Assembly: GCF_024125425.1 (NCBI RefSeq)
Contig: NZ_JAMXWN010000005.1
Coordinates: 62,001-126,000, forward strand
DNA length: 64,000 nt
Source of the DNA: Sporolactobacillus kofuensis
GTDB taxonomy: Bacteria; Bacillota; Bacilli; Bacillales; Sporolactobacillaceae
Direction of reading: 5' to 3'
Within the stretch, counting starts at the first letter, position 1, and each line of letters opens with the position of its first letter. Below, one piece after another: positions 1 through 62,766 of this stretch. The translations under genes were made by a program, and so were the position numbers. Below the pieces are notes generated by a model. The model searched no databases. It was not told where the DNA came from and worked only from the letters and a program-made list of their open reading frames with translations.

Positions 1-876
1 TCGATGCTTACTTATTTGCAAACGCAGCTACAAGATGAGCCCGTTGTCAGCTTGTCTGCGCCGTTAAAGACAAAAGAGGATATCAGCCGCGGAGAGCACC
101 GCTTACTAATTTACGAGCCGCTAAATCTTGATACAGATGTCCAGATTATCGCTTATTCGAAGTATCCGCGCTCAAATAAGCCACCTGAAGTCACTTTTAG
201 TAACTCAACGAAAAACATGGTTGATGTTATGTCGAGTTTTGCTAACGTTGGAACGACAGTAGGTAAGGTGATTGACGACAACGGTCAGGTAAGAACTGAA
301 GCACTAGGAACGACTGTTGCAGACGCGGTACAGAAGATTAATAGTGTAGTGACAAGTGATGATCTGCTTGACTTAACGAAATCGACTGGAAAAATACAAG
401 AATCACAGGCGCGTATTGGACCCGGTACCACGTTTGCGGCTGGGTATGATCCTATACAGCAAGACGGCATACCACTTGCCACGGATGCCATTGACGGCTT
501 ATTGAGCAAAGAGTATCACCAAATTGTTGCTTCACTTCCTGAGGTCGGCATTGTCGGGCCAGGTGGACAAGTTACTTATAAGGTTCTTGTTTCAGATGTC
601 GTATTCGGCGGTCTAATGTCGCCTGAAGATGTTAAAAAGGTACACTCATTACTTGCTAATGAGGATGGCAGTGTTGCTGAAGCCACAGAAACAGATGATG
701 GGTTACTCGGTTTCATAGATAAGCAGAACCTAAATAAATTGTCACTTTGGTTTAGCGGAAGTGGCTTTAATCCGAAAGTCGAAGATCCTAAGAATTCAGG
801 AACGTATGTGAATCTTTCGGACGTTTTATCTAATTTTGAAACAAGGATTGCAACACTCGAAGGAGGTACACCCTAA
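1..876 (+). CDS. Phage tail/baseplate-region protein, probably 5'-partial
   Basis: The frame is open at the left edge, so the first visible ATG (position 4) need not be the true start and no ribosome binding site can be seen. The 290 visible residues are polar, with no membrane segment. The C-terminus (LSDVLSNFETRIATLEGG) looks like a short coiled coil, as seen where fibre or baseplate subunits trimerise. The stop overlaps the next start (TAATG). Its place directly before a tail-fibre gene and the lysis cassette makes a baseplate or upper-fibre structural role likely. I do not recognise a named family. Confidence 0.6.
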   Translation, partial: SMLTYLQTQLQDEPVVSLSAPLKTKEDISRGEHRLLIYEPLNLDTDVQIIAYSKYPRSNKPPEVTFSNSTKNMVDVMSSFANVGTTVGKVIDDNGQVRTEALGTTVADAVQKINSVVTSDDLLDLTKSTGKIQESQARIGPGTTFAAGYDPIQQDGIPLATDAIDGLLSKEYHQIVASLPEVGIVGPGGQVTYKVLVSDVVFGGLMSPEDVKKVHSLLANEDGSVAEATETDDGLLGFIDKQNLNKLSLWFSGSGFNPKVEDPKNSGTYVNLSDVLSNFETRIATLEGGTP

Positions 877-3188
877 TGAAATGGCCATATAGTTTTGACA
901 TGATCGAATCCATGAAAGCTTTTTATGATCGATTAAAACAGCTATTTGCTGATGTTGGCAGTGACATGCAGGAACAGAAGACACGTGTAGATAACCTCGT
1001 CAATGGCGTAGAGCAACCGTCTGAGGTTGTCGACATGCATCTTGGTAGAGATAGCCAAACCTATCCAGTTGCTAGGGATATGGTACTTGGCGAGATCGGG
1101 AAAACAGAAGCTGCACAGGCGGTAATTAATGCAGACACTGCTGCGCAGTTGGCGACTCAGAACGATTCTGTTGCTGCGCAGTTGGCGGATGAGGCGCAAC
1201 AAAGACAAATTAAAGATGAAGATTTAGAAATTAAAAAGGCTCAAAAAAGCGATGTAGTTTCTCTACAGTCACAATTTAATACTTTGGTCGCAAATGCTGG
1301 AAATACTGATGGCAATGCAGAACTTTTAGGGATACGATCAGATTCGATTGGCAGTTCTTTTACAACATCTGGTGACAGGATAACAAATATAGAAAAAACC
1401 ATGGTAACAGGTCTATCTAAATTTGAACCCGGTGATTGGGAGTCTGGCAATTTAGATGCAAATGGGAATAATGCATCATCAAATCAACGAATAAGAACAG
1501 CGAACTTTCACGGCTTTAGCGGGGAAACAATTCATCTTCATGTGAATGCTGGTTATGGATTAAGTATGTTCTATTTTGATGACGATAAAAATTATATTGG
1601 GAAATCTTCATATAATTCAGATATGGATGTTGTGATGAGTCACCCATATTATAAATTCGCTATTGGAGCAAATGGGGATCCAGTAATTAATGTGTCAGCC
1701 GCATTAAATATTGAGATGTATGTTAAAGTAAATCTTTATATAAATGATGGGGCAGTTACTACAGAAAAGTTAGGAAATAAGTCTGTAACTGATGATAAGA
1801 TTAATCTATCAAATATAGCAGCATTTAAAAATTTGATTTACAATTATGCAACAAATATTGGTGCGCCCAAAACTGGAGGCTATCTTAATTCTGGATTATT
1901 AACAACTGAATTAAGTTCTAACGTTGAATATTTATTTCTTGTTGATTTATCCACAGCTTTTAACAAGATTGAGGGATACTCTAACCCAGGATTAACTATA
2001 TTAATATATAGCGGTAATAACAATCTTGGCGTTCAGGCAGTTGTTTCTCCAATAAATGTCAACGAGAGAAGATTTATACTGTTCAGTAGATCGTTTTCAG
2101 ATTATGAATTGTCTGGGGACATTAGATTGTATATAACTGTAACTAATAAAACAGCCGATCAAGCACTAACGTATACGATAAATAGTCTTATGCTTATTCC
2201 TATGGATAATCCTAATTTAAGTACTGATACTTATGGAAAATTGCTTAAACTATGGAATGATGAAAAAGGTTTTTCGGAACTGTATTCTATAGTAATTAAT
2301 ACGGTTAAAGCTATTGAAAGTTCATCTGATGATAGTGATAAAAGTGAAGATTCATGGGGGGACAGCTTGACTCAAGGAGCGGGCGGAAATGGCATAAGAT
2401 ACCCAGATGTTTTACAGTCTTTGTTAGGCACTGACCACACAGTAACTAACTATGGTGTAGGAGGAGAACAGACGCAAACCATAGCATCCAGGCAAGGTGG
2501 CATGGTGATGTTAGTGAATAACATAACCATTCCAGCGGATACAAATCCTGTTCAGATTGGTGGGACAAATACTGGAATTTTAACCAATTACGGAACATAT
2601 TCATTTCCATTGCGTCAAGGTAGTTCTGGTGTAAATCCTTGCTATATAAACGGGGTCAAAGGAACACTATCTATAAGCCAAACATCTATTTCATCTACTG
2701 ATGTTATTTATTATTTCACAAGAGAAACCGCTGGTGATGCAGTCATTATTAATCGTCCAACAGCATTGATTACAGACTATCAAAAGAATAAAAAAAGGAG
2801 CATTCCTATTATTTGGATAGGTCAAAATGGCGGCTGGAATAACGATCCTCAAACTTTAGTTGATCAGTATGAAATGATGATTGATTATGCGGGCAATAAA
2901 AAATATCTAGTGATCGGACTAACATCAGGTTCTGCAGCAGATAGACAGTCTCTTGAGGCCTTAATGAATAAAAAATTTGGAAGGCATTATGTAAACTTGC
3001 GTGATTATATATCACAATATGGCATGGATGACGCAGGATTAATACCAACTAGTACTGATATGGATCAGATGTCCCAAGGAATTGTTCCTGACTCGCTGCG
3101 TGTAGATACAGTACATTTCAATGAACATGGATATCCAATTGTTGCTAATCAAATATATAAGCGTGGACAAGAATTAGGATATTGGTAA
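876..3188 (+). CDS. Prophage tail fibre with C-terminal SGNH/GDSL hydrolase domain
   Basis: This 770-aa protein has an AAGGAGG site nine bases before its ATG. The N-terminal 130 residues are helical and polar (phage fibre/baseplate attachment type). A low-complexity middle follows, and residues from about 495 to the end form an SGNH hydrolase domain. Visible blocks are GDSLTQGAGG (nucleophile Ser), the GVGG turn, GQNGG (block III Gly/Asn) and DTVHF (block V Asp/His). Such domains in tail fibres usually de-acylate or trim host surface polymer during adsorption. The domain is close kin to the protein encoded next. The hydrophobic strand that normally precedes GDS is replaced by an acidic Ser/Asp linker, so activity is uncertain. 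Confidence 0.8.
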   Translation: MKWPYSFDMIESMKAFYDRLKQLFADVGSDMQEQKTRVDNLVNGVEQPSEVVDMHLGRDSQTYPVARDMVLGEIGKTEAAQAVINADTAAQLATQNDSVAAQLADEAQQRQIKDEDLEIKKAQKSDVVSLQSQFNTLVANAGNTDGNAELLGIRSDSIGSSFTTSGDRITNIEKTMVTGLSKFEPGDWESGNLDANGNNASSNQRIRTANFHGFSGETIHLHVNAGYGLSMFYFDDDKNYIGKSSYNSDMDVVMSHPYYKFAIGANGDPVINVSAALNIEMYVKVNLYINDGAVTTEKLGNKSVTDDKINLSNIAAFKNLIYNYATNIGAPKTGGYLNSGLLTTELSSNVEYLFLVDLSTAFNKIEGYSNPGLTILIYSGNNNLGVQAVVSPINVNERRFILFSRSFSDYELSGDIRLYITVTNKTADQALTYTINSLMLIPMDNPNLSTDTYGKLLKLWNDEKGFSELYSIVINTVKAIESSSDDSDKSEDSWGDSLTQGAGGNGIRYPDVLQSLLGTDHTVTNYGVGGEQTQTIASRQGGMVMLVNNITIPADTNPVQIGGTNTGILTNYGTYSFPLRQGSSGVNPCYINGVKGTLSISQTSISSTDVIYYFTRETAGDAVIINRPTALITDYQKNKKRSIPIIWIGQNGGWNNDPQTLVDQYEMMIDYAGNKKYLVIGLTSGSAADRQSLEALMNKKFGRHYVNLRDYISQYGMDDAGLIPTSTDMDQMSQGIVPDSLRVDTVHFNEHGYPIVANQIYKRGQELGYW

Positions 3189-3228
3189 CGGTATTTTTTC
3201 CAACTACACAAATTCATTATTAATAATA

Positions 3229-3237
3229 TGATATAAT
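3229..3237 (+). promoter_or_regulatory. Extended -10 promoter of the anchored SGNH gene
   Basis: TG-A-TATAAT matches the extended -10 consensus exactly and lies about 40 bases before the GTG start at 3276. No good -35 is visible, as is usual for extended -10 promoters. It suggests transcription of the next gene independently of the phage late operon. Confidence 0.55.
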
Positions 3238-3275
3238 TTTTTAGATTGTATATATCTAGTTAAGAAGGTGTGTTT

Positions 3276-4340
3276 GTGAAAAAAATATTCGTTATATTCG
3301 TTGCAATTTTATGTTTAAGTGTTATTTTAATTGGAAAACATCACTATGATTCTAATCTAGCTAATACAAATCATCGAGCTTTAGCTTATCAAGCTGAAGT
3401 TGACAAAAAAACAGGTGAAATTAATTCAATTAAAAAATCAATTTATAATGATATACCAGGTATTGTAGTTTGGGGAGACAGTTTAACCCAGGGTGCAGGA
3501 GGAAATGGTACTACCTATCCTGACGTACTACATCAATTGATCACAAAAAATATTTTTGATATTCCCGTTATTAATATGGGTGTAGGCGGAGAGAATACTC
3601 AAACAATTATGGCAAGGGCAGGTAGTCAAAATTTTGTGACCGATTCTTTCACTATTCCAGATGATACATCAAAAGTTAAAATTAATATAAAATCATCTAA
3701 TGGAAATCAGGTTGCTCCACTGCGTCAAGGTGACGGAGGAATAAATCCAGTAACTATTGATGGTGTTAAAGGGACTATTAGCATTGAACAAGACTCGGTT
3801 TCTAGTAAAAATTTTGCTTACAATTTTCAACGATTGGGAACAGGGATAAGTAAAGAAGCTAGAGATGGAACAGTTGTAAAAATAGATTCACAATCTAAAT
3901 TTGAAAACTATGTTCCCGTTGTTTTCATGGGACAAAACGGAGGATATGCTTCCCCAGATGACTTAATAAAGCAAATTCATTCAATTTTAAATTTGAGCAA
4001 ATCAAATAAAAAGTACCTAGTTCTTGGCTTGACCTCAGGTAATGCGGTTAATAGATCTGAATTAGAAAAAGCTATGGAAAATGAATTTGGCAAAAAATAT
4101 CTAAACCTTCGAGAATTTATCAGCAAAAACGGAATTAAATTAGCTGGTTTAAAACCTTCCTCAGCTGATAAGCAAGCGATGAGTGAGGGAGCCGTTCCAC
4201 CAAGCTTATTATCTGACCAAGTCCATTTTAAATCATATGGATATGAAATAATTGGTAAAGCAGTGTACGAAAGAATGAACAAATTAGGATATTTTAATGG
4301 CATATTGAAGAGTGCTGAAAAGATAAATGCGTTGCAGTAG
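3276..4340 (+). CDS. Membrane-anchored/secreted SGNH hydrolase, prophage cargo
   Basis: Start chosen at GTG 3276, five bases after AAGGTG; an upstream in-frame GTG at 3270 overlaps that site. The protein has 354 aa. Residues 1-20 are a Lys-led hydrophobic segment (signal peptide or N-terminal anchor), and the rest is an SGNH hydrolase. It has VVWGDSLTQG with its preceding hydrophobic strand, GVGGENTQT, GQNGGY and DQVHF. Much of it aligns with the last ~275 residues of the fibre protein upstream. It has its own promoter and terminator, so it reads as a moron expressed in the lysogen. A role in modifying the host surface, perhaps excluding related phages, is inference from context. Confidence 0.75.
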   Translation: MKKIFVIFVAILCLSVILIGKHHYDSNLANTNHRALAYQAEVDKKTGEINSIKKSIYNDIPGIVVWGDSLTQGAGGNGTTYPDVLHQLITKNIFDIPVINMGVGGENTQTIMARAGSQNFVTDSFTIPDDTSKVKINIKSSNGNQVAPLRQGDGGINPVTIDGVKGTISIEQDSVSSKNFAYNFQRLGTGISKEARDGTVVKIDSQSKFENYVPVVFMGQNGGYASPDDLIKQIHSILNLSKSNKKYLVLGLTSGNAVNRSELEKAMENEFGKKYLNLREFISKNGIKLAGLKPSSADKQAMSEGAVPPSLLSDQVHFKSYGYEIIGKAVYERMNKLGYFNGILKSAEKINALQ

Positions 4341-4396
4341 GACACTACTGCGCAACAACTTAAAAATTGATTAAGAGCCTATCATGGCTCTTTTTT
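4331..4396 (+). terminator. Tandem hairpins and terminator after the SGNH gene
   Basis: A GTTG-CAGTAG / CTACTG-(CG)-CAAC hairpin overlaps the stop codon. It is followed by AAGAGCC-TATCAT-GGCTCTT with a T tract (4373-4396), a standard Rho-independent terminator. Confidence 0.75.
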
Positions 4397-4476
4397 CATA
4401 CCCCATTAAAAGAGGTGAACCATCTTCAGACCTTTTCGAGGTCTATTTTTTATGCATAATTTTCGAGGTGATGAGG

Positions 4477-4806
4477 ATGGAAGTGGGAGACGACAGGGTG
4501 TGGGCAATGCTTCTGCAGATAAGGCAGGAGCTTTCAGAATTAAAGGGTGAGTTAAAAGGTTTTAACGCATCAGTCGCAAAAATTGATGAAGCAGACGCAC
4601 GATCACGTAAGGCGCTGGCAATCGCAATGGAAGGTCAGCACGATCTTCAGGAGGTTAAGGCTGATATTGAACAGCACAAGGAAAATCAAGCACGCCGAGA
4701 GGACAAGCTGCAAGCAGACCGAGTCAGCACACGCAGGTGGCTTGTCGGTGTACTGTTATCGGTTGTCGGGTTGATCGTAACTGTATTAATTAGCTTATTT
4801 CATTAA
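4477..4806 (+). CDS. XhlA-like phage membrane protein of the lysis cassette
   Basis: The start is set at ATG 4477, four bases after GAGGTGAT; an earlier in-frame ATG at 4384 lies inside the terminator and has no site of its own. The 110-aa product has a charged coiled-coil region (about residues 10-75) and one C-terminal membrane helix (RRWLVGVLLSVVGLIVTVLI). This is the architecture of the haemolysin XhlA/BhlA family found next to holin and endolysin genes in Bacillus prophages. Its role is likely in lysis, together with the holin at 5817. Confidence 0.65.
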   Translation: MEVGDDRVWAMLLQIRQELSELKGELKGFNASVAKIDEADARSRKALAIAMEGQHDLQEVKADIEQHKENQARREDKLQADRVSTRRWLVGVLLSVVGLIVTVLISLFH

Positions 4807-4847
4807 GGCACTCAATCGGGTGCCTATTTTAATTGGAGGGATTTACT

Positions 4848-5111
4848 ATGTATGATTTCAATTTCGTTTCTAGAGCAAAGGAACTGGTTGCTGAGTACAC
4901 AAATCACCACATTGATAAAACAGACTCAGTTTCAGTTAAACCAGAAGAAGTTTACATTGTTTGGTTTACTAAAACTCTACAGAACGCTAAGGTGCTTCTA
5001 AGTACGAACCTTCCTGACGGTATGTACTATGAGGTGACCTACAACGGTGACAAAGAAGAATATTATCTTGATGCTTACAAGAAATTTAGCAACGGTCGTT
5101 ACAGCAAATAA
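4848..5111 (+). CDS. DUF6275 family phage protein
   Basis: ATG 4848 lies eight bases after GGAGGG; the longer in-frame reading from TTG 4833 overlaps that site. The 87-aa soluble protein carries VYIVWFTKTLQNAKVLLST, DGMYYEVTYNGD and LDAYKKF, the conserved pattern I recall for DUF6275 proteins. These are small proteins of unknown function found in lysis regions of Firmicute prophages. No catalytic motif is evident. Confidence 0.65.
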   Translation: MYDFNFVSRAKELVAEYTNHHIDKTDSVSVKPEEVYIVWFTKTLQNAKVLLSTNLPDGMYYEVTYNGDKEEYYLDAYKKFSNGRYSK

Positions 5112-5124
5112 GGAGGGGATTCAC

Positions 5125-5817
5125 ATGACATTATCAGTAGATTGGTTAATCAGTAAGGCAAATAGAAAACTAGACGATACAGGCATGTTGGCGGCGGTTG
5201 CCGACAAGACACGAGCCGTGATTAAAAAATTGGCGGCTGAAGGCATCTATATCTGCGTGGCACAAGGATATCGTTCAAAGGCTGACCAGGATACATTGTA
5301 CGCACTTGGTCGTACCAAGTCAGGCAAGATTGTCACCAACGCACGTGGTGGTCAGAGTAATCACAACTTCGGTGTTGCCGTGGATCTATGCTTGTACTCG
5401 GCAGACGGCAGCTCCGTATCCTGGCAAACAGGCGGACTATTCAACAAGGTTGTCGCGGCCATGAAGGCAGAAGGTTTCAAGTGGGGCGGTGACTGGCGTT
5501 CATTTAAGGATAATCCACATTTTGAATTGTATGACGCAGCAGGTGGAGAGAAAGCACCGACTGCCGTCAAAAAGTCTGTTAAACCTACGAAACCGAAAAC
5601 ATCGAAAAAGGCGACAATATCCGTCGTTAAGTTCCCCGGTATTTTGAAACAGGGAAGCAAAGGTAAAGACGTTCAACGCGTGCAGAATGCGGTTGGCGTA
5701 AAAGCGGATGGCAAGTTTGGTCCTGCAACTAAAAAAGCGGTACAAGCCTACCAAAAGCGGCATGGGCTTGTTGCTGATGGCATTATCGGTGAAAAAACTT
5801 GGGGAGTGATGTTTTGA
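5125..5817 (+). CDS. Endolysin: M15 peptidase plus peptidoglycan-binding domain
   Basis: AAGGAGGGG precedes ATG 5125. The 230-aa protein has an N-terminal M15 (VanY/CwlK-type) domain with zinc ligands predicted at H80 and D87 (SNHNFGVAVD) and H132 (NPHFEL). A Lys/Pro/Thr-rich linker (about 145-165) leads to a C-terminal PG_binding_1 domain (VQRVQNAVGVKADGKFGPAT, about 175-228). Members cleave the L-Ala-D-Glu or a related stem-peptide bond of peptidoglycan to release virions. There is no signal peptide, which fits export by the holin encoded immediately after. The stop overlaps the holin start (TGATG). Confidence 0.85.
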   Translation: MTLSVDWLISKANRKLDDTGMLAAVADKTRAVIKKLAAEGIYICVAQGYRSKADQDTLYALGRTKSGKIVTNARGGQSNHNFGVAVDLCLYSADGSSVSWQTGGLFNKVVAAMKAEGFKWGGDWRSFKDNPHFELYDAAGGEKAPTAVKKSVKPTKPKTSKKATISVVKFPGILKQGSKGKDVQRVQNAVGVKADGKFGPATKKAVQAYQKRHGLVADGIIGEKTWGVMF

Positions 5818-6095
5818 TGGCAAAGATTAATTGGAAACTTAGATTACAAAACAAGGTAACAGTGATGGCAATTGCCACTGCAAGTATTGCTGTAGCATCA
5901 GCTGTGGTCAATCTAGGTAATGTGGCAGGATTATGGTCGATTAAGTTTGATAGTGCTCAGGTGACGAGTGTGACGCTTAATGCAATCACCGTAGTGTTTG
6001 GGGCACTCGGTTCACTCGGCATCGTCCATGACCCTACAACTGCAGGTGTGGGTGATAGTGAGCAAGCATTGACATACACAGAACCTAAGAAATGA
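5817..6095 (+). CDS. Phage holin, phi LC3 family
   Basis: This 92-aa protein begins MAKINWKLRLQNK and has two hydrophobic stretches (about 16-37 and 45-68). It ends with LGIVHDPTTAGVGDSEQALTY, the conserved C-terminal signature of phi LC3 holins (family usual length about 80-140 aa). It makes the membrane lesion that lets the endolysin reach the wall. It is translationally coupled to the endolysin gene by the overlapping stop and start. Confidence 0.85.
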   Translation: MAKINWKLRLQNKVTVMAIATASIAVASAVVNLGNVAGLWSIKFDSAQVTSVTLNAITVVFGALGSLGIVHDPTTAGVGDSEQALTYTEPKK

Positions 6096-6108
6096 CATAA
6101 TGATTTAT

Positions 6109-6172
6109 TGCCTGGCATAGCCGGGCATCATGGTGTCGGATGGCGAAAGCCAAAGGATGCCTCCATACATAA
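6109..6172 (+). ncRNA. Candidate structured RNA segment after the lysis genes
   Basis: TGCCTGGC-ATA-GCCGGGCA (6109-6127) can form an 8-bp hairpin. GGCATC (6124-6129) can instead pair with GATGCC (6156-6161), enclosing TGGC-GAAA-GCCA, a GNRA-capped hairpin (6141-6152). The two folds exclude each other and sit just before a terminator. This may be a regulatory 3' UTR or a decayed element. I could not match it to a known RNA class. Confidence 0.3.
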
Positions 6173-6202
6173 TAAAACCCCGGTCAACTGCCGGAGTTAT
6201 TT
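6173..6202. terminator. Bidirectional terminator between holin and HTH gene
   Basis: AACCCCGG-TCAACTG-CCGGAGTT has one C/A mismatch. T-rich tracts lie on both sides (ATTTTCC on the right, TTTTATT on the complement), so it can end both the rightward lysis operon and the leftward gene that stops at 6197. Confidence 0.65.
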
Positions 6203-6667
6203 TCCTTTTATTTTAATTAGGTCATTTTTGTCCATAATCCATGTCTTACCTATCTTTTTTGCAGGTATTTCTCCGGAAGCACATTTATTTTTTACTGTAC
6301 CAGGAGATAGGTTTAGAATATCTGCTGCATAGTCAACACCTGCTAACATATCTAAATCAGTATTTTTTTTGTAATATCCATATAAAAATTTAGGATCGAG
6401 CGGATCGTTTGTATATTCGTCGTCATCAAGCGAACTGATAATTTCTTCTAGCATTTTAAACAAATAGCCTTGTGACGGTTTAAATTGTGGCGCGTATTGC
6501 ATCACGTCCTTATGCAACTCCATCAATCCATCAACAGGGCGTTGAGCAAAACGGTCAAACTTTTCTTTGGTCAACAATTGTTGTTTGTGATTAAAAAGTT
6601 GATTGTAAAGTGTATCTAAGATGCTTAATGCCTGACCAAATTTTACTGCCCTAAGTTCCTTGTCCAA
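6197..6667 (-). CDS. Prophage protein with C-terminal helix-turn-helix (excisionase-like)
   Basis: The protein has 156 aa with a TTG start, supported by GGAGGG seven bases upstream and no better ATG nearby. Residues 1-105 are an unrecognised helical region. Residues about 108-152 (YAADILNLSPGTVKNKCASGEIPAKKIGKTWIM, written here as the span only for its HTH-17 pattern) resemble MerR/excisionase-type winged helices, in which the W in TWIM is typical. It could regulate the accessory genes or act as a recombination directionality factor. Neither role can be chosen from sequence. Confidence 0.6.
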   Translation of the reverse strand: MDKELRAVKFGQALSILDTLYNQLFNHKQQLLTKEKFDRFAQRPVDGLMELHKDVMQYAPQFKPSQGYLFKMLEEIISSLDDDEYTNDPLDPKFLYGYYKKNTDLDMLAGVDYAADILNLSPGTVKNKCASGEIPAKKIGKTWIMDKNDLIKIKGK

Positions 6668-6709
6668 TGTAATCCCTCCAATTATGCAGTATAGCCAATG
6701 TCGATTAGA

Positions 6710-7102
6710 TCAAAACAGTTTAGCGATTACCTTTGCGTTTTTGATAACGACTTCGCCAACATCACCTGTTTCGTTCGTGCGTCCATAGTCTCCAGCGATA
6801 AAGTAGCAATGGTTTGTTGTAAAACTGCTGTAACTATAATTATCAATGTCACGGATAAACTCACAATCGGTATCCCATGCGCATGTGCCATCAAGTTCTT
6901 CCATTTCTTCATATTCGTCTGTTCCATATTCCGGAAAATCTCGCTCATCTTCACGATCTTCGTTGTGGCGGCTGTTTTCACAAATTTCACCGATCACACG
7001 ATCCTTATCCTCGAAGCGTACACCGACAACATCGTAATCATAGTACAAATCATCAGCCAATTTTTTGATTGTTTCGGACATGTTAGTGAGTACAGTAGTC
7101 AT
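6710..7102 (-). CDS. Acidic prophage protein of unknown function
   Basis: This 130-aa soluble protein is very acidic in the middle (EDREDERDFPEYGTDEYEEM) and has Cys at ENSRH-flanking, TCAWDTDC and NHCYF positions. An AAGGAGCG site lies before the ATG, and a strong promoter with two inverted repeats lies upstream. Charge and size recall DNA-mimic or anti-restriction/anti-repressor proteins, but I recognise no family and that reading is speculative. The tight promoter control argues that it is a real, regulated gene. Confidence 0.6.
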   Translation of the reverse strand: MTTVLTNMSETIKKLADDLYYDYDVVGVRFEDKDRVIGEICENSRHNEDREDERDFPEYGTDEYEEMEELDGTCAWDTDCEFIRDIDNYSYSSFTTNHCYFIAGDYGRTNETGDVGEVVIKNAKVIAKLF

Positions 7103-8062: not shown

Positions 8063-8350
8063 TTAATCGTCCTCATGTGCGGCATCAATTTTCCGGTCTA
8101 TCTCCCTCGCTTCTGCCTCTAATAAACCGAATATCTCATGTTTATTCATTCCGCTCCTACGGGCATTGATATATGCAAGCACAAATGCTTTTTGGGCCAA
8201 TAATTTATGCTTTAAAAATTCGCTCTCAAGTTCCGAAATCCCAAGCGTTACCTTTGCCTTACCTGAGAGGTTAATCATATTGTTATAATTTTTTCTACAA
8301 TCGTTATTAAGTTCGGCCCAAAAAGAGATAATTTCTTCATAGCTTTTCAT
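8063..8350 (-). CDS. Small helical protein, last gene of the FtsK operon
   Basis: This 95-aa, mostly helical and charged protein has no Cys cluster or membrane segment. Its ATG overlaps the stop of the replication-relaxation gene (ATGA, 8347-8350), so it is translationally coupled and probably works with it. I recognise no family. Confidence 0.55.
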   Translation of the reverse strand: MKSYEEIISFWAELNNDCRKNYNNMINLSGKAKVTLGISELESEFLKHKLLAQKAFVLAYINARRSGMNKHEIFGLLEAEAREIDRKIDAAHEDD

Positions 8351-8943
8351 TTTTGAACAGCTCCTTTTAATAATTCTTCAACATTGCGTGTTTGCAGCAC
8401 TCCTGCGCCTTCAATACGACGATCGCCGATGATCCAAATATTTGGGAATAGCTTCTTATCATGACGCTGCCAGTCGAGTTTTTCCCATTCACGGCTGTAC
8501 TTATAGTTCTCGTATCTAGCCAACTTTTTTGTAATAATGCTGTTAATATAATTGGATTGCTGGACCTCGATAAAAAACGGTGCGCGTTTCCAAATGGCAA
8601 AGATATCGGGCTCAACTGTTCCTTTCGGTCCAAGCTTTGGTTCAACATCAAATCGCTCGAGCAATCCGTTTCGACGCAGATCCTTATACACTTTAAAGAT
8701 ACCTCGGAAATGTTCAATCTTTTGGCTATTGGTATTAATGTTAAATTCGGCTGGAAAGTAAAGGTACGGGCTATGCGTCCGATCGACTTTAATCAATCCT
8801 CGATCTGCAAGCCGGCGCAGAACTTCATTCGCTCGAGATATTTTTTTAACCAGGCCACTAAAATGAAGATCAATTAAATCGTCTCGAGACAGGCAGCGGA
8901 ACCGTGCCAGGTCTTTGAGTATCCGGGTATCTCGCTCACGCAT
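8347..8943 (-). CDS. Replication-relaxation family protein
   Basis: The start is placed at ATG 8943 (MRERDTRILKDL), with GGGGGTG about seven bases upstream; it overlaps the FtsK stop by 8 nt. The product has 198 aa. Residues 1-65 form a winged helix (RFRCLSRDDLIDLHF, then a wing ending VDRTHSPYLYF). The C-terminal half contains VEPDIFAIW and FFIEVQQS, as in replication-relaxation proteins (PF13814), with an acidic/Lys core that resembles a nuclease-like fold. Family members occur beside FtsK-like ATPases in Bacillus phages and plasmids. Binding to a DNA site in cis is the likely role. Confidence 0.7.
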   Translation of the reverse strand: MRERDTRILKDLARFRCLSRDDLIDLHFSGLVKKISRANEVLRRLADRGLIKVDRTHSPYLYFPAEFNINTNSQKIEHFRGIFKVYKDLRRNGLLERFDVEPKLGPKGTVEPDIFAIWKRAPFFIEVQQSNYINSIITKKLARYENYKYSREWEKLDWQRHDKKLFPNIWIIGDRRIEGAGVLQTRNVEELLKGAVQK

Positions 8944-10066
8944 CGTCAGCACCCCCGAGTAGGTCAAAGAGTTGTTTCGGTTCTTGCTCGGGTACGATTT
9001 CAGACAAGCCGTCATCTACCCGAGTACGGATTGGATCAAGTAGCGTTCTTGCCCGGGCAACGTCCAAGTATGGAGACTGTACAGCCCGAGTATCCATAAT
9101 CTTTAACAGACCTCTACCCGGGTGAGTGAGATCTTCCGCACCGGAATCACCGAGTACAATCCGACTATTAACTTTATCCGCTTGTTTGTAGGAGATCCGA
9201 ACAGTCAAGTTGTTTTTTAGCTTGCCGTCTAATACCTGTGCATCTGGTCTCTGCATGGACAGGATTAGATAAACACCAAGTGCTCTTCCGATTGCACTAA
9301 TATCCTCAATTGCAGCCATGATCTTTTTCTCTTTTTTGAGTAGAGCAACCTCGTCAATCGCAACGATGATATCTGGAAGATCCGTTTCTGCCGTACTAGT
9401 CAATCCTTTATCATCAAGCAGTTTGCCACGCTTTTCTAGTTCGGACATCACTTTATCAAGAGCGATGGATAACTGGCCAGCATCTGTACAGAGTGCATCA
9501 ACTGGTTCGCAATTTCGGAAAACGTGAAACTCTGAACGCTTAAGATCACCAAGAATAAAACGCACAGATGGTCGGCAGATCATGAGTGTAGTAAGAACGG
9601 CCCGGAGCTCCGTAGACTTGCCATATCCTGTTTCACCAGCGATGAGTAGGTGTGGATGTTTTCGCATGTCATAAGCAATAAGTGAAGCAGTTTGGTCGTA
9701 GCCAGCAATGATTGGTATAGCCATATCGCCGATGGCCGTTTTAACATCATCCGGCTTATATTTGATCGCTGCTGGCATGCTGTGCCGATAAATGTGAACG
9801 GTGAACTTTTTTAAGTCACCGACAACTACCGTGTTGCGGCCAAACTCTTGTTTAAAAGCATAGTCGCACTTTTTTACCGATGACGGATCCATACCAGTCG
9901 GTAGAGTAAAGGTCAGGATGGTTTCGGACAATTTGCGCTGCACCGCATGAATCGTAGGGCGCACCTCATACGTATTGTTGCCGATCGTCCATTGTCGGCA
10001 GAGACCAGCAGCACGAAAACAATGCCGTAGTCTTTTATAGTACGGATCCCATTTTAAGAAGATCAT
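8936..10066 (-). CDS. FtsK/SpoIIIE-type DNA translocase ATPase of the prophage
   Basis: The start is at ATG 10066, eight bases after AAGGAG; an upstream GTG at 10075 lies inside that site. The product has 376 aa, with an N-terminal non-catalytic region (1-120). The P-loop is GETGYGKST (about 144-152), and Walker B is IIVAIDE with D238 and E239. SMQRPDA at about 280 is the conserved FtsK-type sensor region. There are no membrane helices and no gamma domain, unlike chromosomal FtsK. Similar short FtsK genes lie after the lysis module in Bacillus phages such as the Wbeta/Gamma group. It probably moves or partitions phage DNA together with the overlapping replication-relaxation protein. Confidence 0.8.
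   Translation of the reverse strand: MIFLKWDPYYKRLRHCFRAAGLCRQWTIGNNTYEVRPTIHAVQRKLSETILTFTLPTGMDPSSVKKCDYAFKQEFGRNTVVVGDLKKFTVHIYRHSMPAAIKYKPDDVKTAIGDMAIPIIAGYDQTASLIAYDMRKHPHLLIAGETGYGKSTELRAVLTTLMICRPSVRFILGDLKRSEFHVFRNCEPVDALCTDAGQLSIALDKVMSELEKRGKLLDDKGLTSTAETDLPDIIVAIDEVALLKKEKKIMAAIEDISAIGRALGVYLILSMQRPDAQVLDGKLKNNLTVRISYKQADKVNSRIVLGDSGAEDLTHPGRGLLKIMDTRAVQSPYLDVARARTLLDPIRTRVDDGLSEIVPEQEPKQLFDLLGGADDA
8954..9123. repeat. Cluster of CTCGGG-core repeats in the 3' end of the FtsK gene
   Basis: CCCGAGTA occurs at 8954 and 9085, CTCGGGTA at 8987 and TACCCGAGTA at 9017. CCCGGG variants lie at 9052 and 9117, and a weaker ACCGAGTA at 9149. The same core makes a perfect inverted repeat in the operon promoter (10530-10551). 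The motif sits in different reading registers of the coding sequence, which argues against a protein repeat. It is likely a binding-site cluster. Confidence 0.5.
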
Positions 10067-10164
10067 CTGCCACACTCCTTACAATAAAACCCTTCATGTT
10101 CTGTTACCCTTCCGCAACGCCCACAAAAAGAAAAATAATTGAGATACATAAGTAGATAGATCAT
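10063..10164 (-). CDS. 33-aa zinc-ribbon microprotein
   Basis: The ATG at 10164 overlaps the stop of the preceding membrane-protein gene (ATGA), and its stop overlaps the FtsK ATG (ATGA again). GGGGG lies nine bases upstream. The peptide contains CGRC and, 12 residues later, CKEC, a complete four-Cys zinc ribbon, after a hydrophobic N-terminus (MIYLLMYLNYF). The double overlap and the paired Cys motifs make it a real gene despite its size. It may be a DNA- or protein-binding accessory of the translocase. Confidence 0.6.
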   Translation of the reverse strand: MIYLLMYLNYFSFCGRCGRVTEHEGFYCKECGR

Positions 10165-11620: not shown

Positions 11621-11820
11621 TTTTTGTTCGCTCCTTTTTAACCTACATAAACACTAGAGTTTTTGCGAAAGTTAATTAAGTCATCAGGTGACACAAAAGT
11701 GACAAACCAAATAATTTAAGGCAAGTTTTATCAAGCTAAGTTAATCAATCAATAAAATTAAAAAGCATTAGACAAGCTGTTTAATTCTTAATTAACACAA
11801 GATGATATTTCGAATACCAA
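11621..11820. other. Right prophage/chromosome junction (attR)
   Basis: About 180 AT-rich, gene-free bases separate the last prophage gene from the point where RadC coding sequence resumes ([11 protein letters not shown], from about 11818). RadC usually reads [12 protein letters not shown], but here the codons before NAS encode FRIP, which places the crossover near 11810-11820. The core sequence cannot be set without the other end. Confidence 0.6.
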
Positions 11821-12053
11821 ACGCATCGATCGTCCATCCCCGTGAAGTGTTTAAGGAAGCAGTAAGACAGTCAGCGGCATCGATCATTTGTTTTCACAAT
11901 CATCCGAGCGGAGATCCCACGCCTAGTAGAGAAGACATCGATGTGACCAAAAGACTTGTCTCATGCGGAAAAATGCTTGGTGTTGATGTATTGGATCATA
12001 TCGTCATAGGTGACCGTAAATTTATTAGTCTAAAGCAAAAAAGTTTAATCTAA
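11802..12053 (+). pseudogene. radC: radC 3' fragment, interrupted by the prophage
   Basis: The residual 83 codons match the RadC C-terminus: [14 protein letters not shown], then the JAMM metal site [16 protein letters not shown], then [12 protein letters not shown]. The N-terminal half, about 140 residues with the helix-hairpin-helix region, is missing. The available ATG (11802) has no ribosome binding site and adds foreign residues. The mreB gene follows, as in B. subtilis radC-mreBCD. If the prophage excises precisely, full radC would be restored. Confidence 0.85.
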
Positions 12054-56194: not shown

Positions 56195-57395
56195 ATCATC
56201 AGAGTTAAGAAGCGAGACCGGTTATGCACTAATCGTTGTTCTCCTCGTTATAACTGTGTTCTCTGTGCTTGGGCTCACAGTCATGTCCGTATCCTTCAAT
56301 CATTCCACGCAATTCAGTAAAGAAACTTATAAAACACAGGCAACAAACGCTGCTGAGATGGGGCTCAAAGCATATAATGATCAACTAAATCAGTGGTATT
56401 CAACTATTGATGTGCACAATCCCCCTAGCTTTGCTACTTTGAAAAATCAAATATGGGCGATCAATGTACCTGATCGGACTCTTAATTTACAAGGCAATCC
56501 TGAATATAAAATAAGTAAAGTACAGGTTGATAGTTCAAGCAATCAATATGTGATTAGAATTCAATCTTTAGGTATTGTTCATGGTGAAGAACGAACAATT
56601 TCAATGGAGAAAAAGTTTGTCTATGACGAGAATTATCAAATGACTGAAGAACATGAAGGTCTGTCATTACCCTATATGAATGGGGCAGTCATTGTTGAGC
56701 CAGGACAGTGGCAAATACAAGGTGCAGGTAATAAAGATACGATTCATATCATTGATCAAAATAAAAATCCTACAGAACCCACATATCAATCCGTTGATTT
56801 AACGGAAATGAAAGATCGATTTGAAAATATGCGTATGGCACAACCATCAGACAGTTCGAATTCTGTGACAAGTGCTGACGTGAGTGGAAATGTATATGTA
56901 AGTTCAGGACAAATTGATTGGTCTAAAAATCGAACTTTTGAAGGCGATGTTTATATTAATGGAGATGTGGAAATTTCAGGTGATGTGACATTCAAAGGTA
57001 ATGTACATATAAATGGTAGTCTGGCAGCCACGGGAATCGTGAATGTGGCCGGAAATCTCTATGTTGAGAACGACTTGACATATGGTTTTGGGCAACGTTA
57101 TCAGGGATATGTATTTGTTGGAGGGGATTTCCTAAAAGAATCAAGTAATGGAGGAAATCCACGTGATGACCTCGATGTCCACTTTGACCGTACCGTTTAT
57201 GTAAATGGAAGTTTTGAACCTAGAAATGATGGAAATAAATCTGAATTGTTTTTTTCACAAGGTGTTATCGTAAAAAGTGCAAGTTTGCAAACAAGTGCGA
57301 ATGGCGATATCTATTTCTATCCTCAAAGAAGCGATTCGAATGCATCAGTAAATCCATTAAAACCACCGATGAATGGTAAAATTGTCTATGAATAA
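56178..57395 (+). CDS. PilX-like protein fused to a beta-helix repeat domain
   Basis: GTG 56178, eight bases after GAGGAGAG, gives 405 aa. The N-terminus SETGYALIVVLLVITVFSVLGLTVMSV resembles PilX/GspK-like signals, with the usual Glu absent. After an alpha/beta region, residues about 235-330 contain stacked short repeats (GDVYINGDVEISGDVTFKGNVHINGSL type). These repeats are reminiscent of bactofilin or DUF-type polymer-forming beta-helices. It may be a tip or stalk subunit. Overlap with the previous gene makes it third in the minor-pilin set. Confidence 0.65.
   Translation: MIPKNKSSELRSETGYALIVVLLVITVFSVLGLTVMSVSFNHSTQFSKETYKTQATNAAEMGLKAYNDQLNQWYSTIDVHNPPSFATLKNQIWAINVPDRTLNLQGNPEYKISKVQVDSSSNQYVIRIQSLGIVHGEERTISMEKKFVYDENYQMTEEHEGLSLPYMNGAVIVEPGQWQIQGAGNKDTIHIIDQNKNPTEPTYQSVDLTEMKDRFENMRMAQPSDSSNSVTSADVSGNVYVSSGQIDWSKNRTFEGDVYINGDVEISGDVTFKGNVHINGSLAATGIVNVAGNLYVENDLTYGFGQRYQGYVFVGGDFLKESSNGGNPRDDLDVHFDRTVYVNGSFEPRNDGNKSELFFSQGVIVKSASLQTSANGDIYFYPQRSDSNASVNPLKPPMNGKIVYE

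Positions 57396-60452: not shown

Positions 60453-62766
<2,314 letters not shown>

Follow-up and report, generated by a model that had tools for sequence, protein, structure and literature searches.

Esterase activity is established for two SGNH-domain fibres from temperate Klebsiella phages, and deacetylation of surface polysaccharide at adsorption is the proposed role of these fibres and of the coliphage G7C protein gp63.1 (PMC13123978). Other prophages carry cargo genes, namely Oac of phage D3, gtr of P22 and the O-acetylation genes of Shigella phages, that change the glycan of the lysogen such that related phages no longer bind (PMC11436027, PMC13123978). Changes in acetylation are discussed as superinfection exclusion (PMC13123978), and the available text of a review names acetylation and glucosylation, not deacylation, as receptor changes (PMC11436027). 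Prophage-encoded GDSL/SGNH proteins have been reported as well, with deacetylation of polysaccharide or peptidoglycan suggested as their role (PMC9862828). Here, we describe a prophage of Sporolactobacillus kofuensis in which the gene for a tail fibre with a C-terminal SGNH domain is directly followed by a gene for a predicted membrane-anchored SGNH protein (hereinafter, the anchored gene). The window, i.e., the whole stretch of DNA analysed, comprises 64,000 nucleotides (positions 62001–126000 of contig C39 in a 2.96 Mb genome assembled in 43 contigs). The interpretation that we favour, with somewhat more confidence than doubt, is that the anchored gene encodes a membrane-tethered SGNH acyl-esterase and is a moron-like phage cargo that would remodel the glycan of the lysogen, with the exclusion of sibling phages as the simplest benefit.

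Like the Klebsiella fibres and gp63.1 (PMC13123978), the fibre of this prophage combines an SGNH domain, here a putative esterase, with a receptor-binding protein of the virion; the difference is that a second enzyme of the superfamily is predicted to reside on the membrane of the lysogen. The Oac, gtr and Shigella systems add acetyl or glucosyl groups (PMC11436027, PMC13123978), whereas the predicted activity of the present enzyme is the removal of acyl groups; unlike the products of those genes, it is a homolog of the fibre domain of its own phage. OatA, PatB and AlgJ/AlgX are likewise extracytoplasmic SGNH proteins that act on envelope polymers but are fused to or paired with AT3 or MBOAT acyl donors, (PMC12148441, PMC9487903), in contrast to the present protein, which lacks a domain of this type and whose contig shows no AT3 or MBOAT match. 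We found no literature account of a prophage-encoded membrane-anchored SGNH enzyme that is paired with an SGNH domain of the fibre, most subscription papers being outside the scope of this survey, so that the absence of such an account is unproven. To our knowledge, few systems of this kind have been worked out in Gram-positive hosts.

The anchored protein and the fibre domain

The anchored gene is an open reading frame (ORF) for which a rule-based start is found at position 3270, but the GTG codon at 3276 is the better start because it is preceded by AAGAAGGTG, a likely ribosome-binding site (RBS). The 17-residue core at the N-terminus of the encoded protein has a mean hydropathy of 3.25, and inspection by eye reveals no usual lipobox. 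In the AlphaFold2 model (mean pLDDT, the predicted local distance difference test, of 96.1), a single helix (residues 2–59) is followed by an SGNH fold, so that the protein appears to consist of a membrane helix, a helical stalk that extends to about residue 59, and an SGNH domain (approximately residues 61–340) with strands at about 120–203 placed between blocks II and III. Thus, the membrane anchor that was proposed in a preliminary description of this DNA is borne out by both the hydropathy and the model. Judging from the latter, the stalk would set the enzyme about 5–6 nm off the membrane if about 20 residues cross it. A Pfam search identifies Lipase_GDSL (E=3e-7, above the cut-off) and otherwise only SGNH families, so that there is no fused AT3 domain, in agreement with the one membrane helix of the model. 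The top structural neighbors of the model are GDSL/SGNH esterases and lipases, with the alignments to Protein Data Bank (PDB) entries spanning about 165–190 residues (with Z up to 17.7, for 4rsh_A, with a root-mean-square deviation of 2.6 over 165 residues by VIA-align); OatA domains and Gp82 of phage Moo19 are also among the neighbors, with Z of about 15. A profile search of the PDB gives significant matches to esterases or lipases (best E=1.4e-6). The Foldseek E-values against the PDB are modest (at best, 3.2e-4 for the anchored domain and 1.0e-3 for the fibre), perhaps due to the long helix and the inserted beta-rich part.

The fibre belongs to the tail module and is related to phage tail proteins, with the SGNH domain located at the C-terminus. 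For this protein, the Pfam matches fall below the cut-off (Lipase_GDSL, E=0.0013; Lipase_GDSL_2, 5e-5). Direct comparison by BLASTP aligns fibre residues 494–770 with the anchored domain (128 of 281 positions identical, 46%; E=7e-76), and the tail protein profile phrog_28673 matches both proteins (E=9.9e-88 for the fibre and 1.7e-63 for the anchored protein). Both domains retain the serine of the GDS motif in block I, the glycine of block II, the asparagine of block III and the aspartate and histidine (DxxH) of block V in an alignment of 69 domains, 52 of which possess the full S-G-N-D-H set. The preliminary description considered the end of the fibre and the adjacent protein to be clear SGNH paralogs sharing all blocks; the shared blocks and, for the anchored protein, the assignment to the superfamily hold, whereas the phylogeny of the two domains, proposed there as a check, places them in different clades.

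The tree includes 62 domains, and the residue count extends to 69 since it keeps seven distant rows. The relatives were collected from genome_contigs (49 loci), viral_contigs (1, 3, 19 and 6 loci, overlapping), annotated phages (22 records for the anchored query and 31 for the fibre query) and 397 genomes of the order. A rule that combines hydropathy and length decided which proteins are labelled "secreted" and which "fibre". Duplicates or near-copies (L065, L076, L079, L063, L064), a locus cut by a contig end (L028), fragments (L049, L061, L062) and the most distant sequences (L080, L081, L056–L060) were dropped before tree construction; L009 and L066 (the same matches as L008 and L065) and L090–L094 (found later, partly on the same contigs) never entered it. 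The anchored domain groups with a protein of Lysinibacillus halotolerans (L020) and with L012 (G042) with the support of 99/95, then with the two copies of a Lachnospiraceae locus (L014; 96/89), and this group lies inside a larger set of secreted-labelled proteins encoded on Bacillota chromosomes. The L020 and L014 enzymes have the same architecture as the anchored protein, but are chromosomal, with no phage tail genes in the flanks that were read. The fibre domain belongs to a set of 22 rows, 20 of which are fibres (support 93/94), with L008 and Bacillus phage Mater as its nearest neighbors. Enforcing sisterhood of the two window domains costs 72.9 log-likelihood units (p=0.007 in the approximately unbiased, AU, test).

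An origin of the anchored gene from the SGNH domain of the fibre by tandem duplication inside this phage would be in line with the adjacency of the two genes, their 46% identity and the identical block I motif, and tandem SGNH genes do occur elsewhere (four in each of the chromosomal loci L054–L056). Such a duplication is nevertheless extremely improbable and was rejected on the strength of the 62-domain tree, in which the anchored domain falls within the secreted clade, and of the AU test; furthermore, the anchored domain shares 56% identity with the protein from Lysinibacillus and 49% with that from G042, as against 47% with the fibre. With regard to possible gene conversion between the two copies, across 40-column windows of the alignment, block I is the part where the fibre and the anchored domain are most alike (88%), and there the codons differ. 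As judged by sequence comparison, the two domains are homologs from separate clades, with no duplication in this phage.

The fibre domain shows an unusual feature in its first strand. Of the 59 domains with a readable block I, this one is the most polar in the four-residue stretch separated from GDS by one residue (mean hydropathy of -2.15, compared to -0.875 for the next domain and a median of 1.9), and an alternative frame of the same stretch (window positions 2337–2363) reads as a hydrophobic strand, a combination that compensating small indels would fit. AlphaFold2 still models a strand before the GDS motif of the fibre with high confidence. Models of this type are poor judges of local damage. 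With the strand still modelled, we do not claim loss of function for the fibre domain.

Cargo character of the anchored gene

The anchored gene has a GC content of 33.3% (20.9% at third codon positions), compared to 42.7% for the prophage, which places it among the lowest 2.2% of prophage segments of its size; the middle part of the fibre gene is A+T-rich as well (GC content of 32.1%). Sixteen of the 19 gaps between late genes are shorter than 60 bp, the exceptions being a 160-bp gap at 56778–56939 and the gaps before (87 bp) and behind (130 bp) the anchored gene. The 87-bp gap holds the extended -10 motif TGATATAAT, one of four such sites in the prophage on both strands; it might have arisen by chance, the probability of which is about 1.6% for a stretch of that composition. 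The scan for paired -35 and -10 boxes omits this site, listing instead an overlapping, weaker 9-of-12 match (TACACA/TATGAT, 3205–3232), and reveals no excess of promoters over window positions 1–7000 (16 versus 22.7 expected). The extended -10 promoter that the preliminary description assigned to the anchored gene is present as a motif but is not what the paired-box scan picks out.

A terminator was likewise attributed to the anchored gene. The terminator-like hairpin behind the gene is indeed there (such sites number 9 in positions 1–7000, compared to 3.9 expected), but its ownership is doubtful in view of the comparison with L090, a 6.4-kb viral contig that encodes a Tal protein with 39% identity to the window Tal over 229 columns and a fibre with 34% identity over 175 N-terminal columns and 44% over the SGNH part. 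In L090, a similar hairpin, read by eye and absent from the hairpin-scan list, directly follows the fibre gene, and behind it there are two small membrane-type ORFs, the first of which shows no sequence likeness to the small protein 4471–4806 of the window; the anchored gene is missing there. In another relative, L008, no SGNH gene is found in the 590 bp behind the fibre gene, and L008 and L090 contain lysis genes or a small membrane protein in this place. Given the hairpin straight after the L090 fibre gene, the terminator in the window probably belongs to the tail operon, and the anchored gene was probably inserted between the fibre gene and this terminator. The A+T-rich composition and the absence of the gene behind the fibre in L090 and L008 make its identification as moron-type cargo of a temperate phage well supported at the sequence level.

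Predicted function and alternatives

The gene, the anchor, the catalytic set, the separate ancestry, the cargo character and the loci of the relatives are read from the sequence; activity, substrate, expression in the lysogen and the effect on adsorption are what we infer. The similarity to esterases and lipases, the block II glycine and the precedent of the Klebsiella SGNH fibres argue for an esterase. In the favoured interpretation, the helical stalk would hold the SGNH acyl-esterase of a single-pass protein outside the membrane. Because an enzyme tethered about 5–6 nm off the membrane would be located inside the Gram-positive wall, its substrate is more likely to be a nascent or lipid-linked polymer than the outer coat, and action on surface polysaccharide during export or assembly appears most likely. 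The enzyme would remove O-acyl, probably O-acetyl, groups, so that the coat of the lysogen would be changed (lysogenic conversion), and the related domain of the fibre is as would be expected if the virion bound to an acylated glycan and deacylated it. In the simplest case, the lysogen would lose the acylated receptor and sibling phages would be excluded, to the benefit of the phage; such exclusion is a plausible prediction.

That the substrate is some surface polysaccharide is a moderately supported prediction, which can be considered together with the loci of the relatives. The L020 gene lies upstream of genes for a glycosyltransferase, a flippase-type protein, a nucleotidyltransferase, an aminotransferase and a sugar-nucleotide dehydratase/epimerase. 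At L014, two divergent anchored SGNH genes have in their vicinity genes for an AT3 acyltransferase and a branching glycosyltransferase, both identified by Pfam, along with a flippase-like protein named by reading (no Pfam match). At L030, a more distant relative adjoins a Wzz protein and an AAA/ParA-like protein (Pfam). These loci include two of the three that are nearest to the anchored gene in the tree (L020, L012, L014); a clear polysaccharide cluster was not seen at G042/L086, L015, L016, L017, L018, L025, L027, L032 and L034. In the host genome, whole-genome searches with PF01757 and PF03062 yield four AT3 matches and one MBOAT match, on contigs C15, C4, C8, C10 and C34, and none on the prophage contig C39, so that a partner elsewhere in the genome is possible. 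On C15, one AT3 gene is accompanied by genes for glycosyltransferases, UDP-galactopyranose mutase, a flippase-type protein and a PMT_2 protein, which makes an acylated surface glycan plausible in this host.

Two further observations concern these loci. The divergent pair at L014 (4488–5558 on the minus strand and 5713–6885 on the plus strand) includes one copy that lacks the Ser, Asn and His residues, and might be an enzyme/pseudo-enzyme pair. A GW-repeat glucosaminidase (L100, 6386–8497) is encoded in the surface-polysaccharide cluster of the host, where it adjoins the AT3 acyltransferase.

Several results weigh against the favoured interpretation. The TGATATAAT motif is not preceded by a good -35 box, and only 3 of the 12 chromosomal loci with flanks read (L020, L014 and L030) lie in a clear polysaccharide cluster. 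In five of the 69 aligned domains, all labelled secreted and including one of the two L014 copies, the Ser, Asn or His is missing from its aligned position, so that not every member of the family is an enzyme. The single argument for a substrate shared by the fibre and the anchored enzyme is the 46% identity of their domains, and if the odd first strand signifies a weak or dead fibre domain, the idea of one reaction in the virion and in the lysogen would be undone. The pairing itself was not met again: each of the 22 annotated phage records that the anchored query matches has one matching place, two of the 31 records for the fibre query (both ReqiPepy6) have two, which carry the annotation tail fibre where one is shown, and a second SGNH domain is present in none of the 28 viral-contig loci, some of them from the same contigs, in scans of the fetched DNA.

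More generally, a second fibre and anchored pair was not seen in the searches of phages, plasmids, the genus, family, order, class and phylum, genome_contigs and viral_contigs, with family counts taken from samples of 15 to 398 genomes. The plasmid matches are distant (4 records). Among 85 fetched loci outside the S. kofuensis genome, five hold a second SGNH domain (L014, L053, L054, L055 and L056), all from genome_contigs. The neighborhoods read were those of 12 chromosomal loci, of the viral loci L007, L008, L010, L090, L091 and L092, and of four annotated phages. One viral contig (L091/L064) does encode a membrane-anchored form, but it looks like host DNA: a Wzz-like gene, so called from its likeness to the L030 gene named Wzz by Pfam, lies alongside, and no phage genes were recognized by reading.

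Among the alternative explanations, the anchored gene could be a passenger of host type, i.e., a chromosomal polysaccharide esterase, acquired by the phage, that alters biofilm formation, adhesion or other traits, or nothing, with no bearing on adsorption. The closest relatives are indeed chromosomal rather than viral, and the pairing was met once in the collections searched; we still consider this explanation unlikely because the gene adjoins that of a fibre with a related domain and has kept all catalytic residues, and the chance adjacency of two members of a family that is found in only 2 of the 397 genomes of the order, S. kofuensis included, would be a coincidence. Alternatively, the anchored gene could be expressed mainly as the last gene of the tail operon and encode a late receptor-destroying enzyme; by stripping receptor groups off the dying cell and the debris it leaves, this enzyme would keep the progeny free, which parallels the way receptor-destroying enzymes of animal viruses keep released progeny from sticking. 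This is compatible with the location of the gene directly 3' of the fibre gene on the same strand, with no plus-strand hairpin listed between them, and with the probable operon terminator behind it, given that read-through from the late promoter is expected; however, the 87-bp gap with the extended -10 motif suggests independent transcription and membrane anchoring suits a living cell better than debris, so that such a role is quite unlikely.

It also has to be considered that SGNH domains do serve as transferases (PMC12148441). An anchored protein of the PatB, AlgJ/AlgX or OatA type could receive acyl groups from an AT3 or MBOAT protein of the host for transfer to a surface polymer, which would mask the receptor instead of stripping it, and the AT3 and MBOAT matches of the host, the AT3 gene near L014 and the OatA domains among the structural neighbors are in line with this possibility. 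We deem it improbable: whole-genome searches give no AT3 or MBOAT match on C39, the best PDB profile matches are esterases, and the homologous domain of the fibre works outside the cell, without an acyl donor. The block II glycine is a mild argument in the same direction, the transferases SpOatA and PatB1 having serine or arginine in this place (PMC9487903).

A more specific form of the favoured interpretation, that of a tethered esterase encoded by phage cargo, can be put forward only tentatively and is somewhat unlikely: the two SGNH esterases would have been recruited independently, and the tethered one would remove, during export, the very acyl groups that the fibre needs, as a counterpart of receptor-destroying enzymes. 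Exclusion by removing rather than adding receptor groups is part of this proposition and equally tentative. If it is correct, a prophage whose fibre-related enzyme takes receptor groups away would exemplify how a phage can link entry with the guarding of its host, and the independent recruitment of both domains into neighboring genes would hint that fibre specificity predicts superinfection immunity.

The prophage and additional observations

The prophage, of about 42.8 kb, lies between two halves of radC (5' part, C39:30581–31066; 3' part, C39:73802–74053), with a 20-bp direct repeat as attL (C39:31034) and attR (C39:73820, i.e., window position 11820). It is apparently a complete-looking temperate phage, with an integrase gene adjoining attL, followed by repressor, replication, terminase, head, tail and lysis genes; most of these names come from inspection of the translations rather than from profile matches. 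The stretches scanned for tRNA genes contain none, and the endolysin query detected no related prophage at E<=1e-30 in 14 other genomes of the genus. The late genes in the window (Table 1) are, in order, those of Tal, the fibre, the anchored protein, a small, putatively XhlA-like protein, a small ORF that ends at 5111, the endolysin and the holin.

Table 1. Coordinates of the features discussed in the text (window positions)
Feature	Positions	Strand	Basis or remark
Tal-like prophage tail endopeptidase, C-terminal part	4–876	+	gene start at C39:61245, upstream of the window
Tail fibre / receptor-binding protein, 770 aa, C-terminal SGNH domain	876–3188	+	open ORF; phrog_28673, E=9.9e-88; N-terminus resembles L090 fibre
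Fibre SGNH hydrolase domain, residues 494–770	2355–3185	+	BLASTP, alignment, model
Extended -10 motif TGATATAAT	3229–3237	+	motif count with chance estimate
Likely RBS AAGAAGGTG for GTG start 3276	3262–3270	+	read from sequence
Predicted membrane-anchored SGNH acyl-esterase, 354 aa	3276–4340	+	Pfam, PHROG, AlphaFold2, alignment
Terminator hairpin, probably of the tail operon	4373–4392	+	hairpin scan; comparison with L090
Small protein with C-terminal hydrophobic segment, head of lysis module	4471–4806	+	no strong family match
Endolysin (M15 peptidase and PG_binding_1)	5125–5817	+	family matches
Holin	5817–6095	+	phrog_297, E=5e-18
attR core, 20-bp direct repeat in 3' part of radC	11820–11839	+	attL copy at C39:31034

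Some members of the SGNH family encountered in this analysis have features of their own. L030, L039, L041 and L057 are further secreted proteins of the family without catalytic residues at the aligned places. In each of the related chromosomal loci L054, L055 and L056, from metagenome-assembled genomes (MAGs) of Clostridia, four SGNH genes on the same strand follow one another. In another Clostridia MAG, the L015 gene (5767–7761) encodes an SGNH domain behind a pilin-like-looking N-terminus, presumably of the type IV pilin kind.

Between the lysis module and attR, a gene for a Replication-relaxation protein (PF13814, E=4.6e-8) overlaps an FtsK/SpoIIIE-like gene (phrog_1358, E=4.8e-75) on the minus strand (window positions 8347–10075), a module reminiscent of plasmids or integrative and conjugative elements inside the phage end. 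Also on the minus strand, positions 6197–6667 encode an HTH_17 (excisionase-like) protein, the N-terminal part of which is weakly similar to Cas_Csd1 (E=1.8e-5, below the Pfam cut-off).

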